Source: Candidatus Tyloplasma litorale (GTDB lineage Bacteria; Bacillota_I; Bacilli_A; Mycoplasmatales; Hepatoplasmataceae). Taken from it: 64,000 nt of DNA. The notes below the pieces were generated by a model, which saw only the letters and a list, made by a program, of their open reading frames with translations, made no database searches and was not told the DNA's origin. This document shows positions 12,324 to 47,380 of this stretch, in pieces; the first letter of the stretch is position 1, and each line of letters begins with the position of its first letter. The position numbers and the translations under genes are program-made. Where the stretch lies: assembly GCA_027943885.1 (NCBI GenBank), contig AP027078.1, positions 434,001-498,000 of the forward strand. Reading direction: 5' to 3'.

Positions 12324-12351
12324 AGTAATTTTATTATATAAAAAAAATAAT

Positions 12352-14405: not shown

Positions 14406-14414
14406 AACAAACTA

Positions 14415-14423
14415 ATTTTATCA
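14415..14423 (-). promoter_or_regulatory. Extended -10 of paralog C
   Basis: The minus strand reads TGATAAAAT, ending 9 nt before the ATG at 14405. The same block stands at the same distance before the genes starting at 17144 and 20298. Transcripts would begin at or within a few bases of the ATG, in keeping with the absence of a Shine-Dalgarno sequence. Confidence 0.5.
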
Positions 14424-14482
14424 TATTCAAAATATATTTTAGAAATTATCTTTTAATGCTTTTATAACTAATGAAGTTATTT

Positions 14483-14497
14483 AAAAAAAAAAAAAAA
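14483..14497. repeat. 15-A homopolymer upstream of paralog C
   Basis: Fifteen A residues on the plus strand, about 78 nt upstream of the start codon at 14405, the same length as the tract in the promoter of the gene starting at 6297. Here it does not lie between recognisable -35 and -10 boxes, so any role in switching is less clear. Confidence 0.7.
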
Positions 14498-14585
14498 CTC
14501 TTTTAAACTTAAATATAATATTTTTTTCTATATAGTATGTAAGTTATAAAAAGAATTTAATTTATTTATTTTTTAAGAAACTAAT
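14498..14585. repeat. Intergenic repeat of the surface-protein cluster, copy 2
   Basis: Nearly identical to 12352-12449 over about 85 bp, with the same core (aacttaaatataatattt, then ctatatagtatgtaagtt). It lies directly downstream of the stop codon of the gene ending at 14586. Confidence 0.75.
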
Positions 14586-17144: not shown

Positions 17145-17153
17145 AACAATTTA

Positions 17154-17162
17154 ATTTTATCA
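17154..17162 (-). promoter_or_regulatory. Extended -10 of paralog B
   Basis: TGATAAAAT on the minus strand, 9 nt before the ATG at 17144, in the same context as at 14415-14423 and 20308-20316. Confidence 0.5.
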
Positions 17163-17163
17163 T

Positions 17164-17310
17164 ATTCAAAATATAATCTTCTCCATCAGAAGTATTAAAA
17201 TCATCAGAAACATAATCTATATATGGATCTGGAGTATAATCTTTACTTTGATTTGTATTGTAAAAAAATTGAAACTTAAATTATTTTGTTTTGAGATATT
17301 AAAAATTGAA
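17164..17310 (-). pseudogene. 5' remnant of a D-type surface-protein gene
   Basis: The sequence from about 17164 to 17310 matches the N-terminal coding region of gene D (about 12120-12260), including the YTPDPYIDYVSDDFNTSDGE codons. It has lost most of the signal segment and its start codon and has no downstream body. It lies between the 5' end of paralog B and the intergenic repeat, so it marks the scar of a deleted or recombined paralog. Confidence 0.75.
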
Positions 17311-17332
17311 AATATTATATAAAAAAATATAA

Positions 17333-17424
17333 TAAATAACTCTAAACTTAAATATAATATTTTTTTCTATATAGTATGTAAGTTATAAAAAGAATTTAAT
17401 TTATTTACTTTTTAAAAAACTAAT
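17333..17424. repeat. Intergenic repeat of the surface-protein cluster, copy 3
   Basis: Third copy of the element at 12352-12449 and 14498-14585, ending at the stop codon of the gene at 17425-20298. It has lost a few bases at its left end (ctctaaactt instead of ctcttttaaactt). Confidence 0.75.
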
Positions 17425-23400: not shown

Positions 23401-23803
23401 AAGAAGAATTCGTGGACCAATCACAGGTAGTGAATTAATGGTTGCAAAAAAAGAATTTAAAGAAGATAAACACTTTAAAGATCAAAATGGAAATATTTGA
23501 GATAAATCTAAATATATAGGAATGAATCTTGATGATGGTTCTAAATTAAGTAGATATGATATTTTAAATAAGAAAATATCAACAACTAAAATCCTTTCTA
23601 TTAATGAACCATTTGAATTTGAAGGAAAAATTTATTTATATAAAGGTTTCTCAAACAATCAAATTATTCGTGGAAATATATTTTATAAATGAGCGTCAAA
23701 TGAAAAATATAAAAAAATTTATGGAGAATGACCCTATACAAATATAAATAAATATATGAATTTTAAAAAAATTAATATATCAAAAATGGGAAAAATACAA
23801 TAA
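20426..23803 (+). CDS. cas9: Cas9 RNA-guided DNA endonuclease, type II-A (1125 aa)
   Basis: Cas9 cuts DNA complementary to the crRNA guide, using RuvC and HNH nuclease sites and a tracrRNA:crRNA duplex. Code 4 is needed, since many Trp are UGA. RuvC-I is ILGLDIGVASLGW with D9. The arginine-rich bridge helix (KARNFRSQRRLVKRRLQR) is at about 53-70. RuvC-II IEAARDL has E570. The HNH motif EVDHIYPFS has D658 and H659, with Asn in KGNRTP. RuvC-III PYHHSVDAI has H827 and D830. All catalytic residues are present, so it should be active. About 870-1125 should hold the wedge and PAM-interacting parts. At 1125 aa it is compact beside SpCas9 (1368) and nearer SaCas9 (1053). It stands apart from cas1-cas2-csn2, with the array in between; csn2 in the locus assigns it to II-A. 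Confidence 0.97.
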
Positions 23804-23837: not shown

Positions 23838-26800
23838 GTTTTGGTTGATAGATAATTATGAGTGGATGAACACAATTGTTTTCCATATCAAACTAATTAT
23901 ACGTTTTGGTTGATAGATAATTATGAGTGGATGAACACGAATTTATGAAAGCGTATCAAGGTATGTTAAGTTTTGGTTGATAGATAATTATGAGTGGATG
24001 AACACAGACATTAAATTAATTTGCTCTTTTAATGCGTTTTGGTTGATAGATAATTATGAGTGGATGAACACGCAATTAGAAATACATCAAGAATTGACTA
24101 TGTTTTGGTTGATAGATAATTATGAGTGGATGAACACTTAGTGTTATCGAGGAAAAAGAATAATGGCGTTTTGGTTGATAGATAATTATGAGTGGATGAA
24201 CACGTGCCTTATATAGGAAGGACATAAATCATAGTTTTGGTTGATAGATAATTATGAGTGGATGAACACTAACTCTAAAAATTGTTCTTCAATTCTATCG
24301 TTTTGGTTGATAGATAATTATGAGTGGATGAACACTGAAAAAAGAAAGGAGAGATGTAAAATGGAGTTTTGGTTGATAGATAATTATGAGTGGATGAACA
24401 CATTCTTTAACAGATTTTTTAACAGATGATTGTTTTGGTTGATAGATAATTATGAGTGGATGAACACGGAATGATGTAGAGGAACAAGAATAGTTTTGTT
24501 TTGGTTGATAGATAATTATGAGTGGATGAACACTTTAGATTTTCTTAATCTTGTTAATATTCTGTTTTGGTTGATAGATAATTATGAGTGGATGAACACT
24601 ATTGTAAATGACGAAAGGGTTTGGATACTGTTTTGGTTGATAGATAATTATGAGTGGATGAACACTTACCAGCTGCTTAATTAAAATATAACATAGTTTT
24701 GGTTGATAGATAATTATGAGTGGATGAACACTACCAGCTGCTTAATTTAATATTACCATAAGTTTTGGTTGATAGATAATTATGAGTGGATGAACACAAA
24801 TACATCACCTTACCATGTTTTCATAAAGTTTTGGTTGATAGATAATTATGAGTGGATGAACACTTTAATTCTTTCCTCGCACATATCGTCTATGTTTTGG
24901 TTGATAGATAATTATGAGTGGATGAACACCAAATATTTCAAAATTTTTAAATTCTATTTGTTTTGGTTGATAGATAATTATGAGTGGATGAACACAAACA
25001 ATATCTTATGCAGCATACGAAAGGAGTTTTGGTTGATAGATAATTATGAGTGGATGAACACTATTATAATTACAAATCCTCCTTATAGTGTGTTTTGGTT
25101 GATAGATAATTATGAGTGGATGAACACAATTGATGACCACATCACTCATTTGATTGGGTTTTGGTTGATAGATAATTATGAGTGGATGAACACATAAAAA
25201 AAATAAAAAAAATTGGAACAAATGTTTTGGTTGATAGATAATTATGAGTGGATGAACACAGTGAACAAGTTTCTAACTGAGAAAGTTGAGTTTTGGTTGA
25301 TAGATAATTATGAGTGGATGAACACCCTCCTTTCTCATGTAGTTTTAAACTACTCGTTTTGGTTGATAGATAATTATGAGTGGATGAACACAAAAGCTGT
25401 TACATAAGGTTGATAAGCTACGTTTTGGTTGATAGATAATTATGAGTGGATGAACACTTGCAACAATAGACCAATTTGATGATGCTCGTTTTGGTTGATA
25501 GATAATTATGAGTGGATGAACACAATATTATTATATGCTACCAGAATTTTTACGTTTTGGTTGATAGATAATTATGAGTGGATGAACACAAGAATCTTTC
25601 AATTTCAGGAACATCATTAGTTTTGGTTGATAGATAATTATGAGTGGATGAACACTATTGTATATAACGAAAGGGTCGGGGTATTGTTTTGGTTGATAGA
25701 TAATTATGAGTGGATGAACACATTCGCCTTTAATTTCATAAATTCATTATAGTTTTGGTTGATAGATAATTATGAGTGGATGAACACAAAAATTTAAAAA
25801 AAAATAAAAAATGTATAGTTTTGGTTGATAGATAATTATGAGTGGATGAACACGAATTGATTTTTTTGAGACTCCTTATTTTCGTTTTGGTTGATAGATA
25901 ATTATGAGTGGATGAACACTAGGAATCGCTTCTCATCCGGCGTATTTTTGTTTTGGTTGATAGATAATTATGAGTGGATGAACACATTCAATTAAATTTA
26001 TCTTAAACATCTCTCGTTTTGGTTGATAGATAATTATGAGTGGATGAACACGGTTAGCGGCGATACAGGTAAAATTAGGATGTTTTGGTTGATAGATAAT
26101 TATGAGTGGATGAACACCATCACTTGTTGAGTAGTTTCTATATGTTCGTTTTGGTTGATAGATAATTATGAGTGGATGAACACTCAATTAATATATAAAG
26201 AAAATTTTAGATAGTTTTGGTTGATAGATAATTATGAGTGGATGAACACAAGTTATTGAGGTCAATGACCCTAATACTTGTTTTGGTTGATAGATAATTA
26301 TGAGTGGATGAACACTCAACTGGAGTATGATAAAGAGTTTTATAAGTTTTGGTTGATAGATAATTATGAGTGGATGAACACGAATCAAATTTAAATTCAA
26401 ATCTTAAATTTGTTTTGGTTGATAGATAATTATGAGTGGATGAACACAAAAATTAAATTAAATAAATAAAAATAAAAGTTTTGGTTGATAGATAATTATG
26501 AGTGGATGAACACATGACTAAAGAATTTATTTCTGATGCAGTTGTTTTGGTTGATAGATAATTATGAGTGGATGAACACATAAATAGTTATCACGATCTG
26601 CATCGTTCTGTTTTGGTTGATAGATAATTATGAGTGGATGAACACACTAAATATATACAATGTTATAAACAACAAGTTTTGGTTGATAGATAATTATGAG
26701 TGGATGAACACTTTAGTGATTCTATCACCCCCTTTTCTCGTGTTTTGGTTGATAGATAATTATGAGTGGATGAACACAAGGTTTTAAGAAATATAGATTC

Positions 26801-29800
26801 AAAGGGTGTTTTGGTTGATAGATAATTATGAGTGGATGAACACAAAATGAAAATAAAAGAAAATAGTTTTAACGTTTTGGTTGATAGATAATTATGAGTG
26901 GATGAACACGACAAACAAAAAAATAAAACTAACGTCTTTGTTTTGGTTGATAGATAATTATGAGTGGATGAACACGATGTCGAAGGTGAAGCAATTGATT
27001 TATCTGTTTTGGTTGATAGATAATTATGAGTGGATGAACACAGTCTCTACCTAATTTACGCAATCTGTTTCGTTTTGGTTGATAGATAATTATGAGTGGA
27101 TGAACACTTTTGTCCGCAAATAACGGAAAAGATTTTTGTTTTGGTTGATAGATAATTATGAGTGGATGAACACTTGTTCTTCGATACTTCACGCTTTGTA
27201 CGTGTTTTGGTTGATAGATAATTATGAGTGGATGAACACATTGATTCGAATATACAAATGGAGATTTCAGTTTTGGTTGATAGATAATTATGAGTGGATG
27301 AACACTTATCTTGTTCGCTTCACGCTAAATATGTGGTTTTGGTTGATAGATAATTATGAGTGGATGAACACAAACGCAACGGTATCTTATTCACAAATAA
27401 CGTTTTGGTTGATAGATAATTATGAGTGGATGAACACAATATCTCTTAATTTTAACACTCTTTCATTGTTTTGGTTGATAGATAATTATGAGTGGATGAA
27501 CACATTGAAGGGGGTGGAATGAGAAAACTAAACGTTTTGGTTGATAGATAATTATGAGTGGATGAACACTGGAAAGTTTCAATTTTCTGAAAAATATAAG
27601 TTTTGGTTGATAGATAATTATGAGTGGATGAACACAACCTATTATAGCAATTCAATAAACTTCATGTTTTGGTTGATAGATAATTATGAGTGGATGAACA
27701 CTGTAGATTGAAATGCTAACTCTGATGAATGGTTTTGGTTGATAGATAATTATGAGTGGATGAACACCACAAAAAAGGACCAGAAAGGTTTGGAAAAGTT
27801 TTGGTTGATAGATAATTATGAGTGGATGAACACACCGCCAAACTTTTTCTTAATTCTTTATACGTTTTGGTTGATAGATAATTATGAGTGGATGAACACT
27901 AAAAGCCTTAAATGGACCAGAAAAAAAAGGTTTTGGTTGATAGATAATTATGAGTGGATGAACACACTTTATTTTCATATTCCTCTGTTTTACCTGTTTT
28001 GGTTGATAGATAATTATGAGTGGATGAACACGATCAATTTTAAAAATTGGCCCAGCTATTTGTTTTGGTTGATAGATAATTATGAGTGGATGAACACAAT
28101 TAGGAATTCTTTTTCGATATCCTTCAAGTTTTGGTTGATAGATAATTATGAGTGGATGAACACTTTTGGTCGTGATTTATTAAATCTCTATTTGTTTTGG
28201 TTGATAGATAATTATGAGTGGATGAACACATTTAAATATTCCCAAAAATATAAATTCATGTTTTGGTTGATAGATAATTATGAGTGGATGAACACTAAAA
28301 CTAAGAGAATATTGAGATAATGAACGTTTTGGTTGATAGATAATTATGAGTGGATGAACACTAGAGTTTTAAGAACAAACTCTAGCTATTTGTTTTGGTT
28401 GATAGATAATTATGAGTGGATGAACACAGAGTTTCTTTTAATTGTGGATAACTCAATGTTTTGGTTGATAGATAATTATGAGTGGATGAACACATTTATA
28501 TTTTTGAGAATATCAAAATTTATGTTTTGGTTGATAGATAATTATGAGTGGATGAACACAAAATAAAAAAAATTAAGCAAGAGGGGTGAGTTTTGGTTGA
28601 TAGATAATTATGAGTGGATGAACACTAAAGGTACCGGCGTACAATCTCCGACTACGTTTTGGTTGATAGATAATTATGAGTGGATGAACACTATAAAAGC
28701 TAAACAAAACCAATTTTTCTTGTTTTGATAGATAATTATGAGTGGATGAACACTCTATTTTTGTAATTCTTTCGAAGTTATCAGTTTTGGTTGATAGATA
28801 ATTATGAGTGGATGAACACTTTTATTGAAATTAAAGACATGCAGTTAATGTTTTGGTTGATAGATAATTATGAGTGGATGAACACAATTTACCTTATAAT
28901 TCTGCAACGTCGGAAGTTTTGGTTGATAGATAATTATGAGTGGATGAACACTAAAGAATTTAGAAACTATGGTGGAGACCGGTTTTGGTTGATAGATAAT
29001 TATGAGTGGATGAACACCAGATACACTAAAGAATTGAATGAAATTGTGTTTTGGTTGATAGATAATTATGAGTGGATGAACACCCTTTCTTAAAAAGAAA
29101 GGGGAAAACAAAGGTTTTGGTTGATAGATAATTATGAGTGGATGAACACTTATTACTTCGAAGGTGCTCTAAATGTGCTGTTTTGGTTGATAGATAATTA
29201 TGAGTGGATGAACACTGAGATATCTGATTGAATTGTTTGCGATACGTTTTGGTTGATAGATAATTATGAGTGGATGAACACATCAAAACATTCGGTAGCA
29301 TTTGTTTGAGAGTTTTGGTTGATAGATAATTATGAGTGGATGAACACGCTCGAATGCTACTCACCTAATAAGAGACCGTTTTGGTTGATAGATAATTATG
29401 AGTGGATGAACACAAAGAATTTAGAAATTATGGCGGAGACCTGGTTTTGGTTGATAGATAATTATGAGTGGATGAACACAAATAATGAAACGGATGAAGT
29501 TGTTATTGGGTTTTGGTTGATAGATAATTATGAGTGGATGAACACGACTAAAGAATTTATTTCTGATTCTATTAAGTTTTGGTTGATAGATAATTATGAG
29601 TGGATGAACACTTGTTAAATCTTTTAATGTTGTTGAATGATGTTTTGGTTGATAGATAATTATGAGTGGATGAACACGTAAATTAATTATTGAAAGAGAA
29701 TTTGAATGTTTTGGTTGATAGATAATTATGAGTGGATGAACACTTAAATCTGAACCTGATATTGACCCAATTAGTTTTGGTTGATAGATAATTATGAGTG

Positions 29801-32800
29801 GATGAACACTTAGAATTAATAACAGAAACAACATTTAATGTTTTGGTTGATAGATAATTATGAGTGGATGAACACAAATGAATGAGTTTGTAGCATTACA
29901 GGCACGTTTTGGTTGATAGATAATTATGAGTGGATGAACACGCGGGCATACGCTACCACCCCATCAGGAGAGTTTTGGTTGATAGATAATTATGAGTGGA
30001 TGAACACTATTAATAATTCGTTAGAAAATAAATTTACGTTTTGGTTGATAGATAATTATGAGTGGATGAACACTGCTGTTAAAGTTTCTTTTAAACCCTC
30101 TTTGTTTTGGTTGATAGATAATTATGAGTGGATGAACACACGATGCGGATTCGTTTCTAAATTACGACTGTTTTGGTTGATAGATAATTATGAGTGGATG
30201 AACACATGGTTCAGCAAAATTTAAAGAAGCCTTTAGTTTTGGTTGATAGATAATTATGAGTGGATGAACACGTTAAGTTAAATTTATATGATGATTTAAC
30301 TGTTTTGGTTGATAGATAATTATGAGTGGATGAACACAAAATAAAGTAGATCAATTAGTTAAATATAGTTTTGGTTGATAGATAATTATGAGTGGATGAA
30401 CACTCATCTGTTAAAGAGTCAATTTTATCATTCGTTTTGGTTGATAGATAATTATGAGTGGATGAACACACTTTTTAACTTCTTAATTAAATTATACATG
30501 TTTTGGTTGATAGATAATTATGAGTGGATGAACACTATAAAAGCTAAACAAAACCAATTTTTCTTGTTTTGATAGATAATTATGAGTGGATGAACACTCA
30601 ATCCAGAAACAGGCAAACGTGGAATCTGTTTTGGTTGATAGATAATTATGAGTGGATGAACACAGATCAATTTAACTAGCAATTAATTAGATGGTTTTGG
30701 TTGATAGATAATTATGAGTGGATGAACACATTGTCGATGTTGCTAAAATTAAGCCAATTGTTTTGGTTGATAGATAATTATGAGTGGATGAACACATTTA
30801 AGAAAACCTACAAAAAGCACATACAGTTTTGGTTGATAGATAATTATGAGTGGATGAACACAAATAAAATCGAAATCACTGGTATAACAATGTTTTGGTT
30901 GATAGATAATTATGAGTGGATGAACACCAATCCCTTAACATCGACAACAGGAAGCGGGTTTTGGTTGATAGATAATTATGAGTGGATGAACACACTATTC
31001 AACAAGTGATGTTGAATTTACAGGTTTTGGTTGATAGATAATTATGAGTGGATGAACACAAAAAAATATTATTTCAGGGCACTTTTCAGGTTTTGGTTGA
31101 TAGATAATTATGAGTGGATGAACACTGATGTTAAAAGAATTTTTAAAGAAGATGTGTTTTGGTTGATAGATAATTATGAGTGGATGAACACAAAACTTGA
31201 AAAACAAATAACTGAAACTGTGTTTTGGTTGATAGATAATTATGAGTGGATGAACACTATGATGTTAATTGAATCATTACCAGAACAGTTTTGGTTGATA
31301 GATAATTATGAGTGGATGAACACGATATGAATTGTTTTTGTGATTTCTCTATGTTTTGGTTGATAGATAATTATGAGTGGATGAACACCGGCTGCGTGTC
31401 TTTTTAATATTATTCGTTGTTTTGGTTGATAGATAATTATGAGTGGATGAACACTTAAAAATCAAAAAAATTAAGCAAGGGGGTGTTTTGGTTGATAGAT
31501 AATTATGAGTGGATGAACACTGTTTTAAATTCTTGCCCTTTTTGAGCTGTGTTTTGGTTGATAGATAATTATGAGTGGATGAACACTCTATTTTCAAAAA
31601 TAGACACTTATAAAATGTTTTGGTTGATAGATAATTATGAGTGGATGAACACGGGATCAATAAAAAAATTGGCCTAGCTATTGTTTTGGTTGATAGATAA
31701 TTATGAGTGGATGAACACTGAAAATACAGGGCTATTTTTTGAGAAAATGTTTTGGTTGATAGATAATTATGAGTGGATGAACACAGATTGTGTAGTTTGA
31801 TTAGCACATTGAATGTTTTGGTTGATAGATAATTATGAGTGGATGAACACTAACAATTAATAATTTATATTTAACATTATGTTTTGGTTGATAGATAATT
31901 ATGAGTGGATGAACACTTATGAAAGTGATCTTTGTGAATACATAGAGTTTTGGTTGATAGATAATTATGAGTGGATGAACACCTTCTTTTAATTTATAAT
32001 TTTCACAAATTTGTTTTGGTTGATAGATAATTATGAGTGGATGAACACTAAATGATGATGGCGACATTCTAGCCGACTGTTTTGGTTGATAGATAATTAT
32101 GAGTGGATGAACACGTATTAAAATTAATTAACTTTTTAACAACCGTTTTGGTTGATAGATAATTATGAGTGGATGAACACAAGGCAATTTTTTGAGAATT
32201 AGAAAGTCCTGTTTTGGTTGATAGATAATTATGAGTGGATGAACACTTGGACCAGAAAAATAAGGCAGCTTAAGCTGTTTTGGTTGATAGATAATTATGA
32301 GTGGATGAACACTGTTCTCCAATGTTAGCAAATATTGGGTTAGTTTTGGTTGATAGATAATTATGAGTGGATGAACACAATTTTAAAATTAATAAATTAC
32401 TTAACAACGTTTTGGTTGATAGATAATTATGAGTGGATGAACACCTTTTTTAACCGATGCTGATATAGCTCAATGTTTTGGTTGATAGATAATTATGAGT
32501 GGATGAACACTAAAAAAATTCAAAATAATACAGTATTGTTGTTTTGGTTGATAGATAATTATGAGTGGATGAACACATATGCAGCAAAAATTAATTAAAC
32601 TATGATGTTTTGGTTGATAGATAATTATGAGTGGATGAACACCAAGAGTTAATTTTTTATTTGTGAAAATATGTTTTGGTTGATAGATAATTATGAGTGG
32701 ATGAACACCTCTGACTCTCCAGAGTTTAATTCTAAATAGTTTTGGTTGATAGATAATTATGAGTGGATGAACACCAATTTCGTTATTTATTGTTGCTGTT

Positions 32801-35800
32801 GTGTGTTTTGGTTGATAGATAATTATGAGTGGATGAACACAAAATTCTTAAAGGTTTTGGAGATATCAATGTTTTGGTTGATAGATAATTATGAGTGGAT
32901 GAACACTCCGTAGTCTTTTAGACGACCAGGCACCAAGTTTTGGTTGATAGATAATTATGAGTGGATGAACACAATATTCCGGTCTTTTATGATATGAAAT
33001 GGGTTTTGGTTGATAGATAATTATGAGTGGATGAACACTGATTGAACAGTTGATGAGTCATCTGCTAAGTTTTGGTTGATAGATAATTATGAGTGGATGA
33101 ACACAAACACTATGGAGAAATATTAGATTACCTAGTTTTGGTTGATAGATAATTATGAGTGGATGAACACTAGACAATTTCAAAAGTGTGGATTTTACTA
33201 GTTTTGGTTGATAGATAATTATGAGTGGATGAACACTGGAAATAGATTTAATAAAGTGATTGGTTAGTTTTGGTTGATAGATAATTATGAGTGGATGAAC
33301 ACAGAGTTTATGAAAGATTATATGAAAGTATAGTTTTGGTTGATAGATAATTATGAGTGGATGAACACCCTGGAGGTTTAAATTAATATGACTTCATGGT
33401 TTTGGTTGATAGATAATTATGAGTGGATGAACACAAAAGGACTTACTTCATTGATTGAAACTTAGTTTTGGTTGATAGATAATTATGAGTGGATGAACAC
33501 TTTTATATACATATATAAAATTATATTAAGTTTTGGTTGATAGATAATTATGAGTGGATGAACACGAAGGAGTCAAAGGTGCTTCTCAAGTTGGTGTTTT
33601 GGTTGATAGATAATTATGAGTGGATGAACACAACTACCAGAATTGTTAGTGAATAAGTTATGTTTTGGTTGATAGATAATTATGAGTGGATGAACACTCT
33701 CTCTTTTTAAAATTTGAATTTCATCCTGTTTTGGTTGATAGATAATTATGAGTGGATGAACACGATTTTGAAAGAATGTTAAATTTTGAGGTTGTTTTGG
33801 TTGATAGATAATTATGAGTGGATGAACACGCCGTCAATATCGTCTTTCATGTTGTAATTGTTTTGGTTGATAGATAATTATGAGTGGATGAACACTTATT
33901 AAAAAATGATTGATTTGAATCTAATGTTTTGGTTGATAGATAATTATGAGTGGATGAACACGAGTTTTTTTAAAAGAAGCAATTAATGAACGTTTTGGTT
34001 GATAGATAATTATGAGTGGATGAACACTGAAGTACCTCAAATACATACCAATGACTCGTTTTGGTTGATAGATAATTATGAGTGGATGAACACAATTAAT
34101 TTCATCAATGAAAAAAACAAAACGTTTTGGTTGATAGATAATTATGAGTGGATGAACACAGAAGTTGTACCAGGAGATAGTTTTAAAGTGTTTTGGTTGA
34201 TAGATAATTATGAGTGGATGAACACAAATGATACAGAATAGAGATATTCTAGGTTGTTTTGGTTGATAGATAATTATGAGTGGATGAACACACCAGGTGT
34301 AGTAATCATTGCTACGGTCATGTTTTGGTTGATAGATAATTATGAGTGGATGAACACGAATTAATTGGTGGATCTTATAATAGAGTTGTTTTGGTTGATA
34401 GATAATTATGAGTGGATGAACACATCTTTGATCCCTTTTCTTTTTCCAGCCATGTTTTGGTTGATAGATAATTATGAGTGGATGAACACATTATCTTAAG
34501 AATATTATTTTTAATAATAGTTTTGGTTGATAGATAATTATGAGTGGATGAACACAAAGTTTTTTTATTGTTATCTATATTTTTAGTTTTGGTTGATAGA
34601 TAATTATGAGTGGATGAACACCCACAAATTTAAAGACCAAGAAGGTCAAAAGTTTTGGTTGATAGATAATTATGAGTGGATGAACACAGAAGCAGTTAAT
34701 GCTATAGTACCATTTATGTTTTGGTTGATAGATAATTATGAGTGGATGAACACTTAATAATACTCTTTACCCCCTTTCTCGTTGTTTTGGTTGATAGATA
34801 ATTATGAGTGGATGAACACATTTTCCATCCCCATTTACATAAGCATTACGTTTTGGTTGATAGATAATTATGAGTGGATGAACACACGATGATTGAAAAT
34901 AATATTCACTATTTTGTTTTGGTTGATAGATAATTATGAGTGGATGAACACAAACAATTCATACTGGTAATACAACAATTGGTTTTGGTTGATAGATAAT
35001 TATGAGTGGATGAACACAGAATTAATTCAAAACTTCGGATATTTAGCGTTTTGGTTGATAGATAATTATGAGTGGATGAACACTTTTGAAAAGGTTATCT
35101 CACTCTCTTCCTTGTTTTGGTTGATAGATAATTATGAGTGGATGAACACTTGCACTACTCAATTCATCTACCCACAATAGTTTTGGTTGATAGATAATTA
35201 TGAGTGGATGAACACAATGTTAGGCAAAAAAATAAACGAGTATGTGTTTTGGTTGATAGATAATTATGAGTGGATGAACACCAAAGTTGATGTATATATC
35301 TCCGACATCATGTTTTGGTTGATAGATAATTATGAGTGGATGAACACATTTATTTTAATTGCAGTTATTAACGGAGTGTTTTGGTTGATAGATAATTATG
35401 AGTGGATGAACACCGAATATATTCGATATTATAAAGTTAATATGTTTTGGTTGATAGATAATTATGAGTGGATGAACACATTTTACAAAGAAATAACTTT
35501 TTATACAGAGTTTTGGTTGATAGATAATTATGAGTGGATGAACACTTTTTTACTCAACTTTCAAAATTAGAATTGGTTTTGGTTGATAGATAATTATGAG
35601 TGGATGAACACTCGAAAATTTTGGTTATATAGCAAAAAATTGTTTTGGTTGATAGATAATTATGAGTGGATGAACACTAAATAACTATATCCAGTAATTT
35701 CGTTTAGGTTTTGGTTGATAGATAATTATGAGTGGATGAACACCTAAATCTTCAGCATTTGAATAAATTTCTTGTTTTGGTTGATAGATAATTATGAGTG

Positions 35801-38800
35801 GATGAACACCATTTATATTATGATGTTTATGAATGATCCGTTTTGGTTGATAGATAATTATGAGTGGATGAACACTATGGCTAAATCATCTGATGTATAT
35901 CAATTGTTTTGGTTGATAGATAATTATGAGTGGATGAACACCAATTATTCGCGGACTATACAACTACATCGGTTTTGGTTGATAGATAATTATGAGTGGA
36001 TGAACACACAATTGATGACTATGGTGGTGGTGATGTGGTTTTGGTTGATAGATAATTATGAGTGGATGAACACACCGCAAAATTATTCCTAAATTCTTTA
36101 TACGTTTTGGTTGATAGATAATTATGAGTGGATGAACACTTCTGATCTTGGTGATAATTTATTATATACGTTTTGGTTGATAGATAATTATGAGTGGATG
36201 AACACAGATTATTTATTATCTAATTGAAAAGGCAGGTTTTGGTTGATAGATAATTATGAGTGGATGAACACATAACTTACTAAATATAATTCTATAACAT
36301 AGTTTTGGTTGATAGATAATTATGAGTGGATGAACACACCTTCTTTTTTTAAGAGAAAAAAAAGAAGGTTTTGGTTGATAGATAATTATGAGTGGATGAA
36401 CACAAAACCTTGAGAAGTACATGATTACATTATGTTTTGGTTGATAGATAATTATGAGTGGATGAACACAAACAATTCACACTGGCGAAACAACTATCGG
36501 TTTTGGTTGATAGATAATTATGAGTGAATGAACACTGTTAATAGCAAATTTAACGATATTGTTATGTTTTGGTTGATAGATAATTATGAGTGGATGAACA
36601 CAATTGTTAAAGAAAAAACAACTGAATATTTGTTTTGGTTGATAGATAATTATGAGTGGATGAACACCAAAGTTGATCAATATTTCGCCGGTATCTTGTT
36701 TTGGTTGATAGATAATTATGAGTGGATGAACACTGACCTTTAAAATCGAGTACAGCTTTTAATATTTTGGTTGATAGATAATTATGAGTGGATGAACACA
36801 CGGTGGTGTGTGAACGGATTCAACTAAAAGTTTTGGTTGATAGATAATTATGAGTGGATGAACACTAAAAATTATAATGTATGATATATGTTTTAGTTTT
36901 GGTTGATAGATAATTATGAGTGGATGAACACAGTAATAATTAAATCTAAATCATTAATATTGTTTTGGTTGATAGATAATTATGAGTGGATGAACACGGT
37001 ATTGCAGAGAAAAAAATTTTTAACAGGTTTTGGTTGATAGATAATTATGAGTGGATGAACACAAATACAATATTATTTTGAGCAATAACAAAGTTTTGGT
37101 TGATAGATAATTATGAGTGGATGAACACATTATTTTTATTTGCCATATATCTAAATTAGTTTTGGTTGATAGATAATTATGAGTGGATGAACACTTTTGT
37201 AAATAACAATATATGTGAAGATTAGTTTTGGTTGATAGATAATTATGAGTGGATGAACACTTTAAAAGAGGGACTCAAAAAACACATGTGTTTTGGTTGA
37301 TAGATAATTATGAGTGGATGAACACCATAAGCTTCATATATTTAAGCTGCAATTCGTTTTGGTTGATAGATAATTATGAGTGGATGAACACACCTTCTTT
37401 TTTTAAGAGAAAAAAAAGAAGGTTTTGGTTGATAGATAATTATGAGTGGATGAACACTCTTTAAAAAAATTTTAAATTATCAAACTCGTTTTGGTTGATA
37501 GATAATTATGAGTGGATGAACACATTAAACGGCAAAGTCTTTTTAAATGATTCGTTTTGGTTGATAGATAATTATGAGTGGATGAACACTAAAAGATAAA
37601 GAATATTTTTATCAGGAAGGTTTTGGTTGATAGATAATTATGAGTGGATGAACACAAAATCGTAAAATGAGAGTGAGTGAAGTAAGTTTTGGTTGATAGA
37701 TAATTATGAGTGGATGAACACTTTACCAAATATATTAATTAAATCATGGTTGTTTTGGTTGATAGATAATTATGAGTGGATGAACACGGAAAGGCTGGAG
37801 TTTTGGAAAAAAGGAAAGTTTTGGTTGATAGATAATTATGAGTGGATGAACACGGAAAGGCTGGAGTTTTGGAAAAAAGGAAAGTTTTGGTTGATAGATA
37901 ATTATGAGTGGATGAACACGGTTATCCTTCAATGACATAAATGGAGCATGTTTTGGTTGATAGATAATTATGAGTGGATGAACACTTTTTATAAATTTTT
38001 ATAAACTCGTTAAGAGTTTTGGTTGATAGATAATTATGAGTGGATGAACACTAAAAATAAATTTGAAAATTCAACTGTAATGTTTTGGTTGATAGATAAT
38101 TATGAGTGGATGAACACTTCAGAAAACTGATTTGAATTTAGATGAGTGTTTTGGTTGATAGATAATTATGAGTGGATGAACACAATATGGCCTTTGTAAA
38201 GGCTGTTAAAGCCGTTTTGGTTGATAGATAATTATGAGTGGATGAACACTAATTTCGATTTTATTCCCGTATGTTTTATGTTTTGGTTGATAGATAATTA
38301 TGAGTGGATGAACACAAAATGAATGAATTCGTAGCGCTGTAAACTGTTTTGGTTGATAGATAATTATGAGTGGATGAACACAATTGGACCAGAAAAAGGC
38401 AGCTTATTAGTGTTTTGGTTGATAGATAATTATGAGTGGATGAACACAAGGATTTCGTGGGGCAAAAAATGCCTATGGTTTTGGTTGATAGATAATTATG
38501 AGTGGATGAACACTTAACAGAAGTCTTAGACTATGTTGAAACAGTTTTGGTTGATAGATAATTATGAGTGGATGAACACTTATAAATTTCTTGAGCTTTA
38601 TAATTTTCAGTTTTGGTTGATAGATAATTATGAGTGGATGAACACGAAAGAGATTATTATCTCAAAACCAGAAGTGTTTTGGTTGATAGATAATTATGAG
38701 TGGATGAACACTTTCTTGCTCTTCTTTAATATTATATATAAGTTTTGGTTGATAGATAATTATGAGTGGATGAACACATAGCGTTTTGATCGCCGTTTAA

Positions 38801-40424
38801 TTTTAGAGTTTTGGTTGATAGATAATTATGAGTGGATGAACACAGATTTCGAGCATTTAAGAGAGAAAAAATAGTTTTGGTTGATAGATAATTATGAGTG
38901 GATGAACACTTCCTCTTTTCAATTTTCGTGAAGTGTTTCGTTTTGGTTGATAGATAATTATGAGTGGATGAACACAATCTAACCTAGAATCAGCAGACAC
39001 CACACGTTTTGGTTGATAGATAATTATGAGTGGATGAACACTAATGATTCTACTTTTGAAGCAATATCCATGTTTTGGTTGATAGATAATTATGAGTGGA
39101 TGAACACCTACATCTTCATATTCCATTAGTATGTTATGTTTTGGTTGATAGATAATTATGAGTGGATGAACACTAGATTTTTGAAGAAGTGAATTAAGAG
39201 AACGTTTTGGTTGATAGATAATTATGAGTGGATGAACACAAAAATCAGTTTTTATTTCTCCAGTTTCATGTTTTGGTTGATAGATAATTATGAGTGGATG
39301 AACACAGCAATATTAAATGGGGTACTCCATTAAGTGTTTTGGTTGATAGATAATTATGAGTGGATGAACACTTCTCACTTCATCAAGAAAGATATGCTGG
39401 TGTTTTGGTTGATAGATAATTATGAGTGGATGAACACTCATCTATTAACTCATCGATTTTATCACTTGTTTTGGTTGATAGATAATTATGAGTGGATGAA
39501 CACTCTTTTAGTTATTTATTTAATGGAGTGGTTGTTTTGGTTGATAGATAATTATGAGTGGATGAACACGGAGTGTTGGTTTTTATATTGAAAAAAATAG
39601 TTTTGGTTGATAGATAATTATGAGTGGATGAACACCCGCAATTGCTAAATTCGACGACGATTTTAGTTTTGGTTGATAGATAATTATGAGTGGATGAACA
39701 CAACTAAAACTCTCCTTAGATTTTCTCTATCGTTTTGGTTGATAGATAATTATGAGTGGATGAACACTGATTCAATTGATAACATAAGCGTCATCAAGTT
39801 TTGGTTGATAGATAATTATGAGTGGATGAACACAAAGACCAGATATCACTCAACTAATTTTTTGTTTTGGTTGATAGATAATTATGAGTGGATGAACACT
39901 TCAGAAAACTGATTTGAATTTAGATGAGTGTTTTGGTTGATAGATAATTATGAGTGGATGAACACGCTAATGACGAACAAACTTTAAAAACCATTGTTTT
40001 GGTTGATAGATAATTATGAGTGGATGAACACTTACCGCAAACGAACTTTCAAAAGACATTTGTTTTGGTTGATAGATAATTATGAGTGGATGAACACAGA
40101 TATAATTATATGGTAAAGGAAAGGACAGTTTTGGTTGATAGATAATTATGAGTGGATGAACACGTAATTTCATATACTTCAACTGCAACTCTAGTTTTGG
40201 TTGATAGATAATTATGAGTGGATGAACACAAACTAAAATTGATAAAGAAATTGATATTCGTTTTGGTTGATAGATAATTATGAGTGGATGAACACTAATA
40301 AATCGGGAATCCCAGGTTGTTGATAGTTTTGGTTGATAGATAATTATGAGTGGATGAACACTTATTGAGTAGTTAACGCTCAAAATCATTTGTTTTGGTT
40401 GATAGATAATTATGAGTGGATGAA
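23838..40424 (+). CRISPR. Type II-A CRISPR array, 252 repeats and 251 spacers
   Basis: The 36-bp repeat begins GTTTTGGTTGATAGAT and ends GGATGAACAC. By tracking repeat starts I count 251 spacers, nearly all 30 nt. Exceptions are 29 nt (23874-23902, 31324-31352, 33501-33529, 36998-37026, 37261-37289) and 31 nt (23939-23969). Repeats look identical except those at 28722 and 30566 (same 4-nt deletion of GGTT), 36500 (one G to A), 36764 (first G to A) and the terminal copy at 40392, which loses its last bases. A GTTTT start and a degenerate right end indicate transcription left to right, with the newest spacers next to cas9. Because 66 nt is a multiple of three and UGA is sense, three of the six frames stay open through the repeat; these are not genes. 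Confidence 0.99.
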
Positions 40425-40446
40425 TTTTTTAAAATAAATTCAACTT

Positions 40447-40480
40447 AAAAAGGCAATAAATTAATTTATTGCCTTTTTTT
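40447..40480 (+). terminator. Bidirectional terminator at the array end
   Basis: A palindrome (ggcaataaattaatttattgcc) flanked by A5 and T7 lies 22 nt after the last degenerate repeat and just before the stop codon of the convergent minus-strand gene. It can terminate the array transcript rightward and the helicase gene leftward. Confidence 0.8.
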
Positions 40481-40483
40481 ATT

Positions 40484-42427
40484 TTATAAACCATTGGTTC
40501 TATTTTCTATCAATCTATTATTAATTCTCTTCTTTAATTTTTCAATTTCTATATTTTCTTCATAAAATAAATAATTTTTTAATAATTTATCTTGTTGTTT
40601 TGTTTCTAATAAATTTCAATCTTCTTCTGTTATATATTTTCCAATAAATCAATTTCTACTTGTTAGTATTTCAAATTTAATATTTTTCAAACCATATTTT
40701 CTAATAGTTTTAGAAACTTGTTGTTTTTTCTTCAGTTTTAATTTATCATCAAATGCATTGCTGACATGATAACAAAGTCTTTGGATTAAATTTTGAGATT
40801 GGCCAATATAAACTCTATTTTCATTATTATGATCCAATATTGTAATTTTATAAATTCCTGCTTGATTCATATAATATTTATATTCAAATTGATTAATTAA
40901 TTTAGTATTAATTAAATTTTCTTGAACTCATTTTTCATCTCTTCAAATATTATTAATGTAACTTTTATATATTTTTGTTTTGAATATACTTATTTCATTT
41001 AAATTATTAAATTTACTAAAATTACTTTCTCCCAAAGGTATAAATTTCTTATTTTTTGAAAAATAAAAACCAAGAGCTTCTTTATTTGTTTTGATTTTAT
41101 CAATTGAAATATTTTGAACATTTATTTTTAAAGCATCCTTGCCTCTAGAAAGAGCAACATAAGTTTGACCATCAGCAAAAATATTTTTACAATCAACATC
41201 AAAACTATCTAAAGTCATTCCTTGGGATTTGTGAATAGTTATTGCATATGCAGGTTTAATAGGTAATTGTTTAAATGAAAGTGCTATTTTATTAGGGTTA
41301 TTAAATTCATATAATGTATGTTTGTAAAAATTAAGTTTTTGTTCACCTACACCATCCCAATCAACAATTATCTTACTATAGTTAATATGCTTTATAGTTC
41401 CTAAAGATCCATTAACTAATTTATTATCAAAATCATTTTTTAAATGAATAACTCTTATTCCTTTTTTAATAATTAATCTCTCACTAAATGTTTCTTTAAA
41501 TGAATTAATTTCATTCTTATACAAATCTCAATTAGAAGAATAAATTTTAGATTTAAATAAAAAAGACTTATTATTATTGGATTCAATAAATTTATTGTTT
41601 ATTGAATCAACTTCATCTTTCTTAGCACGTAAATTTAATGATTCTGATTTACTTTCATTTTTTAAATTATGAAAATAATTTATATCATCTTTATTAGTAA
41701 TTCCAATTCTTAAACGATTTAAATGTCTTATAAAATCTTTATCTTTTTGTCTATAATGTTTATTTAAAGTTAAATAAACAAAATTCATACTTTCTCATAT
41801 TCTACTTTTAAAAATTCAAGGAGTAAAAAATCCATTTTTAGATATAGGTGGTAATTGAAGAAAATCACCAAACAAAATTAATTTTACACCACCAAAATAT
41901 TCATTATTATTTCTTGCATCTTGTAATACTTTATTAAGTAAATCAAATTGCATATAACTTAAAATTGAAATTTCATCTATTATCAAAACATCAATTTTTT
42001 GTAGTTTTAATTTTATTTCTTGTTTATATTTTTTAGAATTTAATATTTTATTTATGTCATCTAGACTCTTTTTATTTCCTATTCCTGAAAAAGAATGAAT
42101 AGTCATTCCATTCTCAAAATTAACAACAGAAATGCCAGTTGTTGAAGTTATTTGATATTCTAAATTTAAATATTTAGTAAATTCATTTATAAAAGTAGAT
42201 TTACCTGAACCAGCAGGACCTGAAAAAAAATAATAATTTGAATTATTTCCATCAAAAATAGTAATAAATTTTTTAAGATATTCATTTTTAGTTTCAAAAT
42301 CTTTTCTTTCATCTAATGTTTGAACTTTTGCTTTTTCAAAAAATGAAATTCGAATTATTAAAATAAAAAATATTGCTAATACTAAAGAAAATATTGCTAA
42401 TACTAAAAGAATTGAAAATAAAATCAT
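40484..42427 (-). CDS. Membrane-anchored PIF1/RecD-like helicase fused to GIY-YIG nuclease (647 aa)
   Basis: One code-4 frame; read with the standard code it breaks into four pieces at UGA-Trp codons. Residue numbers are from the upstream GTG at 42451; I prefer ATG 42427, since a TATAAT (42443-42438) sits between the two. A long hydrophobic stretch (MILFSILLVLAIFSLVLAIF) is followed by an SF1B helicase core: Walker A GPAGSGKST (78-86), Walker B DVLIIDE (154-160), GDFLQLPP (195-202), and a C-terminal AITIHKSQGMTLD ... YVALSRGKD module typical of PIF1/RecD. From about 528 comes a GIY-YIG domain: AGIYKI, then VYIGQSQNLIQRL, His in CYHV, FEIL and a basic tail. Function unknown. Helicase plus nuclease at the membrane suggests processing or restriction of incoming DNA. 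It lies between array and cas1, divergent from cas1 and convergent with the array. Confidence 0.85.
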
Positions 42428-42508
42428 ACTAAAAAAATTATATATTTTCACTTAAGTAAAAAAATTAAAAAATTATTAAATTATAATTTAAGTAAAAAAG
42501 GATGAAAA
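42428..42508. promoter_or_regulatory. Divergent promoter region of helicase gene and cas1
   Basis: A TATAAT at 42482-42487 lies 21 nt before the cas1 ATG, with an AAGGA ribosome site at about 42498. On the minus strand TATAAT (42443-42438) lies 10 nt before the helicase ATG at 42427. A direct repeat ttaagtaaaaaa occurs at 42452 and 42489. No -35 consensus is evident. Confidence 0.5.
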
Positions 42509-43459
42509 ATGGGATGAAAAACTATTCTAATAGAAAGTGAAAATAAATTTTCTATCAAAAATAATTTTTTAAAATTAACAAGTTACAATGATGAAAAAGA
42601 AAAAGAAAAAGAAATAAAAATATCATTAGAAGAAATAGATTTAATAATAATTCAAAATTATAAATCTTGAATTACAATTAGAACTTTAATTGAACTATCA
42701 AAAAAGAATATAACTTTTATAATTTGTGATCTTTCACATGATCCAATTTCAATGTTAATTCCATTAGCATTACACCATAAACCATTGCAAAATTTTAATT
42801 TACAAATTGAACAAAATTCAAGATCTAAAAATATTTTACATAAAGAAATAATTAAACAAAAAATAATAAATCAAAAATCAGTATTAATAGATATTGAAGC
42901 AAGTGAAGAAATAATCAATAAATTTTCCAATTTTGCAAATGATGTATTACAAGGTGATAAAACAAATAGAGAAGCAGTATCTGCAAAAATGTTTTTTAAA
43001 GAAATATATGGAAGTTCATTTGTAAGGTTTTATGATGATGGAATCAATTCTTTTATGAATTTTGGATATAAGATTTTAGCTTCTAAAATTTCTAATTGCT
43101 TAATAAAATATGGTTTACATCCAACTTTAGGTGTATTCCATAAAAATAAAAGTAATTATTTTAATTTATCTTATGATTTTATTGAACCCTTTAGACCATT
43201 AGTAGATTGATTAGCTAATTATCTTAAAATAGAACTAAAAGATACATTAACTATTTCATTAAAACTTAAAATATTAAGAATTTTAGATATGAAGGTACAA
43301 ATAAATGAGAAGATATATCTTGTAAAAAACGCTATAGATATTATGGTAAAAAGCTATATATCATTTTTACAAAATGAAAGAGAAGATCTTTCACTACCAA
43401 CTATTCATTTATCATTAATAAAGGAACAAATAGATAAATATGAATTCAAGGAGTTCTAA
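42509..43459 (+). CDS. cas1: Cas1 integrase of type II-A (316 aa)
   Basis: Cas1 forms the spacer-integration complex with Cas2. The ATG at 42509 gives MGWKTILIESENKFSIKNN, the usual N-terminus of type II Cas1, with a ribosome site (AAGGA) ahead. UGA-Trp codons occur throughout. Metal-binding residues are visible: Glu155 in TNREAVSAKMFF, His211 in GVFHKNKSNYF and Asp223/Glu226 in SYDFIEPFRP. The length is normal to slightly long. Its last 20 bases overlap the start of cas2, so cas1, cas2 and csn2 form one translationally coupled operon. This adaptation operon lies 18.7 kb from cas9, beyond the array and the helicase gene. Confidence 0.96.
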
Positions 43460-43778
43460 TTTTAGAGTTATGAGATTAATAATTTTATATGATTTACCGA
43501 CAGTTACTAAAAAAGATATTAAAATGGCTAGTAAATTTAGAAGTGAAATAATAAAAAAAGGATTTATAATGATGCAAGAATCTGTTTATATAAAACAATG
43601 TATAAATATTGATCACTTAAATAAAGAGTTAATTAAATTAAGTTTAATCCTTCCTAAAGAGGGTGATGTAAGAGCAATATCAATAACAGAAAAACAATAT
43701 TTTGATATGAAAATATTAAAAGGTGAAAAAAGCGTTGATGAAAAAATAACAGAGAAAGGTAGTTTAATTTTAATATAA
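43440..43778 (+). CDS. cas2: Cas2 (112 aa)
   Basis: Cas2 is the structural dimer at the centre of the Cas1-Cas2 integrase. The sequence shows the typical first strand MRLIILYDLPT with Asp18, then VYIKQ and DVRAISITEKQYFDM. A basic N-terminal extension (MNSRSSNFRV) precedes the usual start; Met11 is a possible alternative, but the ATG at 43440 has AAGGA-like spacing only within cas1. It overlaps cas1 by 20 bases and shares one base with the csn2 start (TAATG). Confidence 0.94.
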   Translation: MNSRSSNFRVMRLIILYDLPTVTKKDIKMASKFRSEIIKKGFIMMQESVYIKQCINIDHLNKELIKLSLILPKEGDVRAISITEKQYFDMKILKGEKSVDEKITEKGSLILI

Positions 43779-44827
43779 TGAAAATAATTTTTAGTAAAAA
43801 AGAAATATTATTTAAAAATAATATTGCATATTTGTTTTATAACAATCCAGAAGAAAAAGAAGATATTTTATCAGAATTAATACAATCAATTAATAAGGGA
43901 GATTTTATTTATGATGAAGAAGAATTTGATAAATTTGATTCATTAGAATATGTAGATTTAAGTAAAAATTTAGTAAAAGAATTTGCATTATTAAAAACTT
44001 CTGGAATTAGAAGAAAAATAGAAAATGATGTAAAGGATTTTTTCATTCAAAATGAAATCGAAAATGTATTTAATAAAGATATATTAAATGAACTTTTTAA
44101 AAAAATTGAAGCAAATTTTAATACTGAGGAATATAAAATATACTTTGAGAATAAAAATGATGATGCAACAAAATTAATTGATAACTTATTTAAAATAAAA
44201 ATCAATACAAAAGATGGAGAGGAAATAAATACAAAATTAAATCAATGAGTTTTATCTCCAATTTACTTAGAAATGATGTTAGATGATAATATTAAAAATA
44301 AAATAATTATTATTAATAATTATGATTCTAATGAAGATTATTCTAATGAATTTATCAATAAAAAAATAACTAAATTAATTAAAAATAATTTAGTCTTATT
44401 AATAACTAGAAAAAATAATTTTTTTAAAAATCAAAATTGTTCATCCAAAAATATAAATATAATAACTGGAGAAGATGAAATACAAAATATTAAAATGAGT
44501 AAGGAAATCTTGAAAGATATTTATTTACTAAATAATGATTTTTCAATTTATGATTATGATATTTTTAAATCAAATAGTGATTATTTAACTAGTGAAAATG
44601 AATTACAAAGAATGGAAAATATATTATTTTCAGCAATGAGTATTCATATGAAGGATTTAGTATTTAAAGAAAAAAGTTCCATAGATTTAACATATTTAAA
44701 TGATGAATTATATTATGGTGTTCTTTTATTTTTAGATCTTAATAGTGATTTATTTAAAAATCCCAAAATTACTTATAGTAGGGAAACAAAGAAAACAATA
44801 AAAGAAAAAATAAAATTAATAAAATAA
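43778..44827 (+). CDS. csn2: Csn2, long form (349 aa)
   Basis: Csn2 is a ring-forming, DNA-end-binding protein needed for spacer acquisition in type II-A. This one has 349 residues, like the long Csn2 type of Streptococcus thermophilus rather than the about 220-residue SpCsn2. The N-terminus MKIIFSKKEILFKNNIAYLF and the late hydrophobic strands (KIIIINNYDS, NNLVLLITRK) fit the degenerate P-loop-like fold; I see no clear Walker A. A UGA-Trp at 44246 joins its two halves. It starts within the cas2 stop codon and ends 2 nt from the stop of the convergent AAA_13 gene, with no clear terminator between them. Confidence 0.87.
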
Positions 44828-44829
44828 AT

Positions 44830-47169
44830 TTATTCTTCTATTCCAAAGGCAACTATTGTAGAAGATAAATAATTTCTATGTCTTATTCTTCTAAGTAGAT
44901 TTTCATCTTTCTTTTCATGTGCATTTTGTATTAAAAGTGAAAATCTTTTAGAAAAGTTAATTAAAATATCCTTTTCTCCACAATCTATTTCAAATAATTT
45001 TTCAAAATTAATCATAGATTTTTTTATTGGAAGAAAGTCATTTTCAGAATTAAAAATTTTATTTGAAATTTCTTTAATTCTTTCATTATCTTTTGATAAT
45101 ATTTTAGAATTTAATATTTTATGAATATTTTTACAAATGTTTTCCTCCTTATTTTTTGGATAATTTCCTCCTCATATTTCATTTTGGATAAGATTTTTAT
45201 AATTATTTCTAATACATTGCTTTTTTTCATTATGAGGAATATCATTTATTCTAACAATAATATAAAATATTGTTTTTAAACTTTTAATATACTCATCTTC
45301 AATTTTAAAATTTGAATCTATAATAAAATTAATAAAAATGCTTTCTAAAAAATTAGAAATATTTTCTTCATTAGGAAAAAATGAACGAAAATTAATTATT
45401 TCATCTACTCTTGTATTTCCACTATTTAATTTTCATTCTCTTATTTCAACATCATTTTTATCATCATTTTTCATATCACTAAATAATTTCTTTTTGTCAT
45501 TCTCATTATTTTTTAAAGAAGAAGTTAATTCATATAAAACATTCAAATTATGTGTAAATATAATAAATTTAGATTTAAGCTGCTTTTCCTTCTTATTTTC
45601 ATTTATTTTTTTACCTAATCCACCAATTCCTGTTGCTATGCCAAATTTATCTAAATTAAATTTAATATTTGATAATTTATTAGCTTTTGAATGGTCATTT
45701 GAATCAAAAGGATCATCTATTAAAACAATTAAATTCTCATTTTCTTCTAGTTTATTTATTTTTATTTCTAAATGAACAAAAAAATATGAAAGTGAAAAAA
45801 TTTTCCTTTCCCCTTCTGATAATTTTTTAATTTCTTTATTAATTTCTATTTCATAATTACCTGAAGAACCTTTGCCTTGTTTTGGTTTGGGAAGTAAAAT
45901 TTTAAAACTAGCATCAAAGTGATTCAAAAAATAATTAAATCTTTTTTCTATTTTTTCACTTATTTCAACTAAATTATCTTCTCTTTGGATTTTTAATTTA
46001 TTTATTTCGCATTCAATTTTTTTATCTTCTTTAAAATTTCTATTTATTTCATAACTTTCTTTAAAAAAATTTATTTTATTTTTTTCAAATTCATTTTTTA
46101 TAATCTTTTTTTCTTTCTCAAAATCAATTCTTTTTTCTTCTATATTTAAAAATGGTAAATTTTCTAAAATTGAATAAATATTTATATTAATTTTTTTAAA
46201 ATTATCATTATTTTCATTAATTTTTTTAACTACATCACTAAATTTCTCAAATAATTCATTTACTTCTTTAATTTTTTTAATTTCTTTATAAATTCCTCTA
46301 TTAAAAATTTCCTTAATTTTTTTTTTAATTTTTTTTACATTTAAATTTAAAGAAGTTATTTTTTCATTTACTTTATTTGAATATTCCTTCAAATATTCCT
46401 CTATATCTTTTTGTTTAATTTCTATCTTTCGTATAAAAAGAAAATCTTTTTTTATTTTCATAGCCTCTTTATGAAGATTTATTATTATTGTTTCTTCATT
46501 TTTTTGTTTATTAAAATTTTCATTAATAAAATCAATAATTTTATTAGTATTATTAATTAAAAAATAAACTTTTTCACACTCTGCAAAAAAATCATTAATT
46601 ATTTCATTATTTTTTATTTTTTCAATTGAAGAAATTATTTTTTTTTCAATTTCTTTACTTGAGACTATAAAATCTTTTATTTGATCGTCTTTAAAACTTT
46701 TTTTCAATTCATTAAAAGTAGGTTCTTTAAAATCAAAATATTTTTGATTTTGTTTTATTGTTTCAATATATCCTTTTTTTATAAAATCATTTATTTTATT
46801 TTTGATTTCATCTAAACATTTTTGATTTTTATCTATTTTATCTGAAATATCCTTTATATTTTCTGCATAAAATAATTTGAATGTGCTATTTTTAATAGGA
46901 TTACTAATGTTATTAATAATTTCTGAATTTTCTTTATCAATAGATGAAATAAAAATATTATTAACTATAAAATCTTGATTATAAATTAATATATTTTCTA
47001 AATTATTTTCTTTTTTTATTTCATTTATTTTTCTTGTATATGTTGTTTTTCCAACACCATTTTTTGCAAAAACATAAGTTATAGGTTTTTTATCCATATT
47101 TTGAACATTTAATTTAATGTGTTCTTCTATAGATATATTTAATTTTTCTTTTAAATCTTCTATTGTCAT
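44830..47169 (-). CDS. AAA_13 (PrrC/RloC-like) ABC-type ATPase (779 aa)
   Basis: One code-4 frame from ATG 47169 to TAA 44830; UGA-Trp codons break it in standard-code reading. Walker A is FAKNGVGKTT (34-43), followed by IYNQDFIVNNIF, typical of the AAA_13 group. A long charged coiled coil spans about 85-430. The ABC signature is LSEGERKIFSLSYF (450-463), Walker B LIVLIDDPFDS (about 480-490) and the switch histidine is in FTHN (540). About 200 residues follow that I cannot assign. In PrrC and RloC this place carries an anticodon-nuclease domain; I do not see its R-x3-E...H signature with confidence. Relatives act in phage defence, so an abortive-infection role is a reasonable inference. It lies directly downstream of the tracrRNA terminator and convergent with csn2. 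Confidence 0.75.
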
Positions 47170-47187: not shown

Positions 47188-47380
47188 AAAAAAAACAAAT
47201 ACTCATTAGAGTATTTGTTTATACAGGAGGATTAATTGGTGGGGTTACCTGTGTACCCCTCAGCATAAAGCTTTATCTTGATTGATAGATAATTATGAAT
47301 GGATAAACTTATATTTAATTGTTTGTTTTGGTTGATAGACAATTATGAGTAAGTAAACTTTTCATTCAAATAACCAAGTT
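47188..47380 (-). ncRNA. tracrRNA with two tandem anti-repeats
   Basis: Minus strand. Two anti-repeats pair with the CRISPR repeat: distal 47325-47360 and proximal 47275-47310, 14 nt apart. The proximal copy can pair with repeat positions 1-34 without a mismatch; all five base differences (positions 1, 3, 7, 25, 31) give G-U wobbles. The distal copy pairs at 1-28 (wobbles at 16, 27, 28), with one mismatch at 29. After the proximal copy come a short palindrome (ATAAAGCTTTAT), a stem-loop GGGGT-loop-ACCCC (about 47239-47257) and a strong terminator. The 5' end is inferred from the -10 box at 47387. Expected length is about 190 nt before processing. It lies 23 kb from cas9 and is convergent with csn2 across the AAA_13 gene. 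Confidence 0.88.
47189..47220 (-). terminator. tracrRNA terminator
   Basis: The minus strand reads AAACAAATACTC, loop TAAT, GAGTATTTGTTT, then a U-run. The 12-bp perfect stem marks the tracrRNA 3' end at about 47188. Confidence 0.9.

Follow-up and report, generated by a model that had tools for sequence, protein, structure and literature searches.

The window analysed here is a stretch of 64,000 nucleotides (positions 434,001 to 498,000 of the forward strand of AP027078.1) from the one-contig, 615,622-bp genome of Candidatus Tyloplasma litorale, a tiny bacterium inhabiting beach isopods. It contains a type II CRISPR locus in which cas9 (+) and its array are followed by a terminator, a gene for a helicase–nuclease fusion (−), cas1, cas2 and a csn2-like gene (+), an AAA_13 ATPase gene (−), a candidate tracrRNA (−) and the gene for EF-G. 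The features, in window coordinates, are:

20426..23803 (+): cas9 (TIGR01865, 4e-115)
23838..40427 (+): CRISPR array of 252 repeats (36 bp) and 251 spacers, 247 of them distinct
40447..40478 (no strand): terminator hairpin between the array end and the fusion gene stop (1 found, 0.2 expected)
40484..42451 (−): predicted membrane-anchored Pif1 helicase–GIY-YIG nuclease gene, in code 4 (655 aa from a GTG start; 647 aa from the ATG at 42427)
40562..40870 (−): GIY-YIG nuclease-like domain, residues ~528–630 (Pfam, hhalign, PHROG 5123)
41042..42265 (−): Pif1-type SF1B helicase core, residues ~63–470 (Pfam PIF1, PF05970, 8e-29; PDB Pif1 matches; Foldseek)
42344..42427 (−): predicted N-terminal transmembrane helix, residues 9–36 (Kyte-Doolittle against shuffles; helix in the AF2 model)
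42452..42508 (no strand): divergent promoter region common to the fusion gene and cas1; on the fusion gene side, the strongest sigma-70-like match is at 42508–42480 (−), and such matches are no commoner here than in shuffles
42509..43459 (+): cas1 (type II)
43440..43778 (+): cas2
43778..44827 (+): csn2-like gene, with no Pfam match here
44830..47169 (−): AAA_13 (PrrC/RloC-type) ATPase (Pfam AAA_13 2.9e-7, below the curated cut-off; PDC-S06 6e-6)
47192..47350 (−): candidate tracrRNA, with two anti-repeat-like stretches and a terminator hairpin

The genome, of Fukuoka2020, was published in PMC10928387, which lists Cas9 (BDU67745.1), Cas1 (BDU67747.1), Cas2 (BDU67748.1) and Csn2 (BDU67749.1), the last named via HHpred, and describes the CRISPR system without naming the fusion gene; the word helicase is absent from its main text. 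To judge from the protein numbering, BDU67746.1 should be the fusion gene, which comes after cas9 and the array and before cas1. Its position between the array end (40427) and cas1 (42509), divergent from the latter, is as described in the initial annotation, and the distance of about 80 bp given there between the two starts fits the ATG (81 bp), the GTG leaving 57 bp. The last array repeat, at 40392, is degenerate, so the array end next to the fusion gene is probably the trailer rather than the leader. With 251 spacers, the array is more than twice the size of the largest one (105 spacers) in a survey of mollicutes (PMC6882279).

At the other end of the locus, the AAA_13 ATPase (PrrC/RloC-like) is a second candidate defence gene, putatively of the anticodon-nuclease type, and no relative of it was found among 98 other genomes of the order. 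The candidate tracrRNA carries its main anti-repeat-like stretch at 47278-47308 and a second such copy upstream (47325-47350, 26 nt, one mismatch), and Rfam gave no match anywhere in the CRISPR locus. Left of cas9 (8130-20298, −) are encoded four large proteins of 651-1397 aa, three of them with weak fibronectin type III matches, which are probably surface proteins.

Architecture of the fusion protein

The fusion gene is real and has a single open frame under code 4: from 42451 to 40484 (−) the translation runs uninterrupted for 655 aa and includes seven UGA codons. The reading of UGA as Trp, and with it the frame, is supported by Trp219, a UGA-encoded residue whose aligned column is Trp in all four relatives from mollicutes and in 25 of the 26 from viruses. 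The four pieces visible in the standard code do join, as had been proposed, into one protein of 647-655 residues.

The central part of the protein is a Pif1-family (SF1B) helicase, as judged by motifs, sequence similarity and predicted fold. The SF1B motif set is complete, in agreement with the initial annotation: Walker A GPAGSGKST (78-86), DEIS (159-162), GDFLQLPP (195-202), RQ (234-235), TIHKSQGMT (405-413) and YVALSR (431-436). Structure prediction, one of the checks suggested at the outset, modelled both a Pif1 fold, with pLDDT mostly above 90 in the helicase part, and an N-terminal helix; the top 37 Foldseek matches of the model are all Pif1 (TM-score up to 0.85, by target), and a PDB sequence search also returned Pif1 proteins. 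Of the earlier label 'PIF1/RecD', the first half is thus confirmed by Pfam and Foldseek and the second falls, the RecD2/TraA assignment having been rejected on NCBIfam matches that are partial and far below cut-off. Bacterial Pif1 proteins (Bacteroides, Thermus oshimai, Sulfurihydrogenibium) have the same core and motifs and are the best PDB matches in sequence and fold. However, the GIY-YIG motif occurs in none of 160 Pif1 relatives (the best 80 IMG/VR and best 80 GTDB matches from broader profile scans, hence the best of each scan and not all Pif1 proteins), and just two of these may carry a hydrophobic stretch at the N-terminus.

The predicted N-terminal anchor reaches a Kyte-Doolittle 19-residue maximum of 3.42, whereas none of 1000 shuffles exceeded 2.89, and residues 1-30 are modelled by AF2 as a continuous helix (block pLDDT 88-93), which upholds the hydrophobic anchor first read from the sequence. 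Lysines and arginines follow this helix and, by the positive-inside rule, would place the enzyme in the cytoplasm.

The C-terminal part, already recognised as GIY-YIG in the initial annotation, scores 22.2 bits against the Pfam GIY-YIG model when taken alone, just under the cut-off of 22.6, but hhalign aligns it to GIY-YIG with a probability of 97% (E 3.6e-11), and it matches PHROG 5123, a GIY-YIG homing endonuclease family. The start of the domain is complete, with GIY (532-534), YIG (548-550), R558 and H562 all present, and residues 510–565 match the PADLOC candidate PDC-S14 (E 1.3e-6). The end of the domain has diverged: E616 is a plausible, tentative assignment for the catalytic Glu, and the terminal GYN motif is not recognisable; since this motif holds the last conserved Asn, the nuclease could be weak or dead. 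The model of this part has low confidence, and the C-terminal part folded alone gave a poor model. An internal ATG lies at residue 528, just ahead of the GIY motif, as in free-standing GIY-YIG proteins. The nearest relatives of the domain, weakly so, are phage homing endonucleases, and no homologue of the C-terminal part came up in phage or plasmid records at E 0.01. One weak class-level match to it was dismissed as chance, since both the sequence of that protein and the adjacent gene suggest the gamma subunit of an ATP synthase.

Relatives, origin and distribution

The same genome also holds an intact plain Pif1 of 421 aa (L001), with orthologues in the genus at 56% and 46%. This protein and the Hepatoplasma helicases (G005/G008) are the nearest relatives of the helicase part of the fusion, which is 31% identical to L001 and 37–38% identical to the Hepatoplasma proteins, but these resident family Pif1 proteins (421–433 aa) have neither anchor nor nuclease and are not located beside cas genes. 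The fusion helicase joins those of Hepatoplasma in a 14-row tree (support 98/95) and again in a 164-row FastTree (0.986), there inside a mollicute group at 0.849; its branch is long and its exact place uncertain. Because the domain nests among Hepatoplasmataceae helicases, it seems to be a diverged Pif1 of the family, and an origin from phages or plasmids is not favoured. As for the surroundings of plain Pif1 genes, a Cof-type HAD hydrolase gene adjoins them in this genome (L047:7900-10528), in Hepatoplasma and on a Bacteroides finegoldii plasmid (L005, L006, L053). Two tandem GIY-YIG plus DUF4357-like proteins, which match PDC-S14 over nearly full length, are encoded some 2 kb away from the plain Pif1 of Tyloplasma (L047:5312-7249, +).

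The fusion is apparently undescribed, with one known example within the searches and literature covered, and the initial annotation's remark that no described CRISPR accessory protein of this architecture was known has stood up to them. In the order-level genomes other than that of the window, matches to the full-length query were confined to helicase segments; with the C-terminal query, neither 395 genomes of the class nor 392 of the phylum (overlapping samples) yielded a credible relative. Single-protein scans of GTDB contigs and IMG/VR for close relatives returned nothing, and the full fusion was not found in phage or plasmid records. A literature search on Pif1 together with GIY-YIG and helicase yielded nothing but work on eukaryotic mobile elements, Polinton-like viruses and mitochondria. 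A set of homologues residing mostly on plasmids or integrated elements, which would have pointed to a passing mobile gene, did not appear, no full-length homologue having been found in these searches.

Co-occurrence with cas1, which the initial annotation proposed to score, is confined to a single genome. A census of 59 order-level genomes, the one of the window included, found a cas1 relative in 14, and the fusion accompanies it in the window genome alone (1/14). In a congener (G002), whose cas1 is 67% identical and whose assembly is incomplete, so that a copy of the fusion might lie in a missing part, the upstream side of cas1 shows two small unrelated ORFs and gidA, with no helicase, and the fusion is also absent from the other cas1 loci of the family. 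In Hepatoplasma, amylase and PTS genes separate cas1 from cas9, an insertion of unrelated metabolic genes that has already been reported (PMC3942034) and that makes adjacency to cas1 weak evidence of a CRISPR role in this family. Given the lack of a recurrent cas association and the congener locus without the fusion, the reading as a CRISPR accessory protein is not supported. Among the relatives, one (G006) encodes a 266-aa GIY-YIG protein just past a CRISPR array (L041:16859-17659), and another (G007, L137) has a similar protein away from cas genes.

Possible roles of the helicase–nuclease

The best explanation, held tentatively and at somewhat less than an even chance, is that the fusion is a helicase–nuclease peculiar to this lineage, carried as cargo in the CRISPR locus and directed at the membrane against DNA entering the cell. 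We infer its inner-face orientation, activity, substrate and anti-invader role as follows. The N-terminal helix would tether the protein to the cytoplasmic side of the single cell membrane. There the Pif1 motor, presumably moving 5'->3' on single strands as in other members of its family, may engage phage or plasmid genomes at exposed or gapped single-stranded regions as they enter, and unwind them, while the tethered GIY-YIG domain would cut the opened strands. This reading is favoured because the catalytic motifs of the helicase are intact and its model matches Pif1 structures, because Pfam, PHROG and hhalign back the GIY-YIG assignment and the anchor stands far above shuffles, and because the gene clusters with cas genes, the 251-spacer array and the AAA_13 candidate in a 616-kb genome. 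The lineage-specific and patchy architecture is typical of defence genes, and the helicase is an extra copy beside the resident plain Pif1, which argue in the same direction. It is weakened by the single sequence from which the fusion is known, by the terminal Asn that is not recognisable, leaving a nuclease that may be weak or dead, and by the low model confidence of the GIY-YIG part. The PADLOC matches of the helicase were rejected as evidence of defence, since they are unspecific: the resident plain Pif1 obtains better scores.

It is unlikely that the gene is a duplicated Pif1 that serves DNA metabolism in general (in repair, replication restart or the handling of imported DNA at the membrane) and merely happens to lie in the CRISPR locus. 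Mollicutes rely on imported nucleic acid precursors, which would suit such a role, and the domain is akin to the family's own Pif1; non-cas genes also stand between cas genes in Hepatoplasmataceae (PMC3942034). Nevertheless, a general function fits poorly with the strong divergence of the protein, its added anchor and nuclease and the intact plain Pif1 retained in the same genome. The weak proximity to phage homing endonucleases and the internal ATG before the GIY motif would suit a selfish gene, in which a homing-type nuclease acquired a helicase and became lodged between the array and cas1, but this origin is improbable, given that neither the C-terminal part nor the full fusion has a phage or plasmid homologue in the searches above, that the helicase groups with those of the same family and not with phages, and that the nuclease domain lies in frame within a large membrane-anchored protein.

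It is rather improbable, too, that the fusion serves CRISPR adaptation, unwinding and chopping entering DNA at the membrane and passing the fragments to Cas1–Cas2–Csn2 in place of RecBCD/AddAB. Its divergence from cas1, the two starts being 57–81 bp apart and the promoter regions overlapping, is in line with such a function, as is the size of the array (251 spacers, 247 distinct, against at most 105 in the mollicutes of PMC6882279), which suggests intense acquisition. Against it, neither the cas1 locus of the congener nor any other cas1-positive genome has the fusion, Csn2 is already there (PMC10928387), unrelated genes separate cas1 from cas9 in Hepatoplasma (PMC3942034), and the gene is placed at the probable trailer end, not the leader. 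That the anchored Pif1-GIY-YIG protein intercepts entering DNA to make prespacers for a type II-A Cas1-Cas2-Csn2 set, and thereby explains the exceptionally long array, is improbable as well: the array length makes the idea attractive, but position is all that speaks for it.

Among known systems, Nhi is a single-gene anti-phage nuclease-helicase that nicks and unwinds DNA (PMC12904381) and offers a precedent for one-gene defence with both activities in one polypeptide. The nuclease domain of Nhi-like proteins is, however, of the NERD type (PMC10952713), whereas the fusion has a GIY-YIG domain, gave no NERD match in the Pfam scan and showed no homology to Nhi, so that membership in that family was rejected. 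GIY-YIG domains are present in the defence systems PD-T4-3 and PD-lambda-1 (PMC10952713), which, like PDC-S14, share this domain with the fusion but lack a helicase; moreover, the PDC-S14 match covers only the GIY-YIG start, and two proteins encoded elsewhere in the genome are better PDC-S14 members. No typeIV_RecD model appeared among the matches listed. Like the fusion, the RecD of Type IV-D CRISPR is an SF1B helicase from a CRISPR locus, but the fusion sits in a type II locus and has a nuclease joined to it, and it was not assigned to that group. The fusion could thus be regarded, by its presumed function, as a variant within the helicase–nuclease defence proteins.

Helicase–nuclease fusions recur in bacterial immunity, and a membrane-tethered Pif1 with a GIY-YIG domain was not found elsewhere in the searches and literature covered. 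The setting of the gene makes a link with spacer acquisition directly testable. If active, the protein would provide a genome of ~616 kb with a single-gene defence at the point of DNA entry, and would be a case in which a Pif1 native to the bacterium's family has been reshaped for immunity or adaptation.
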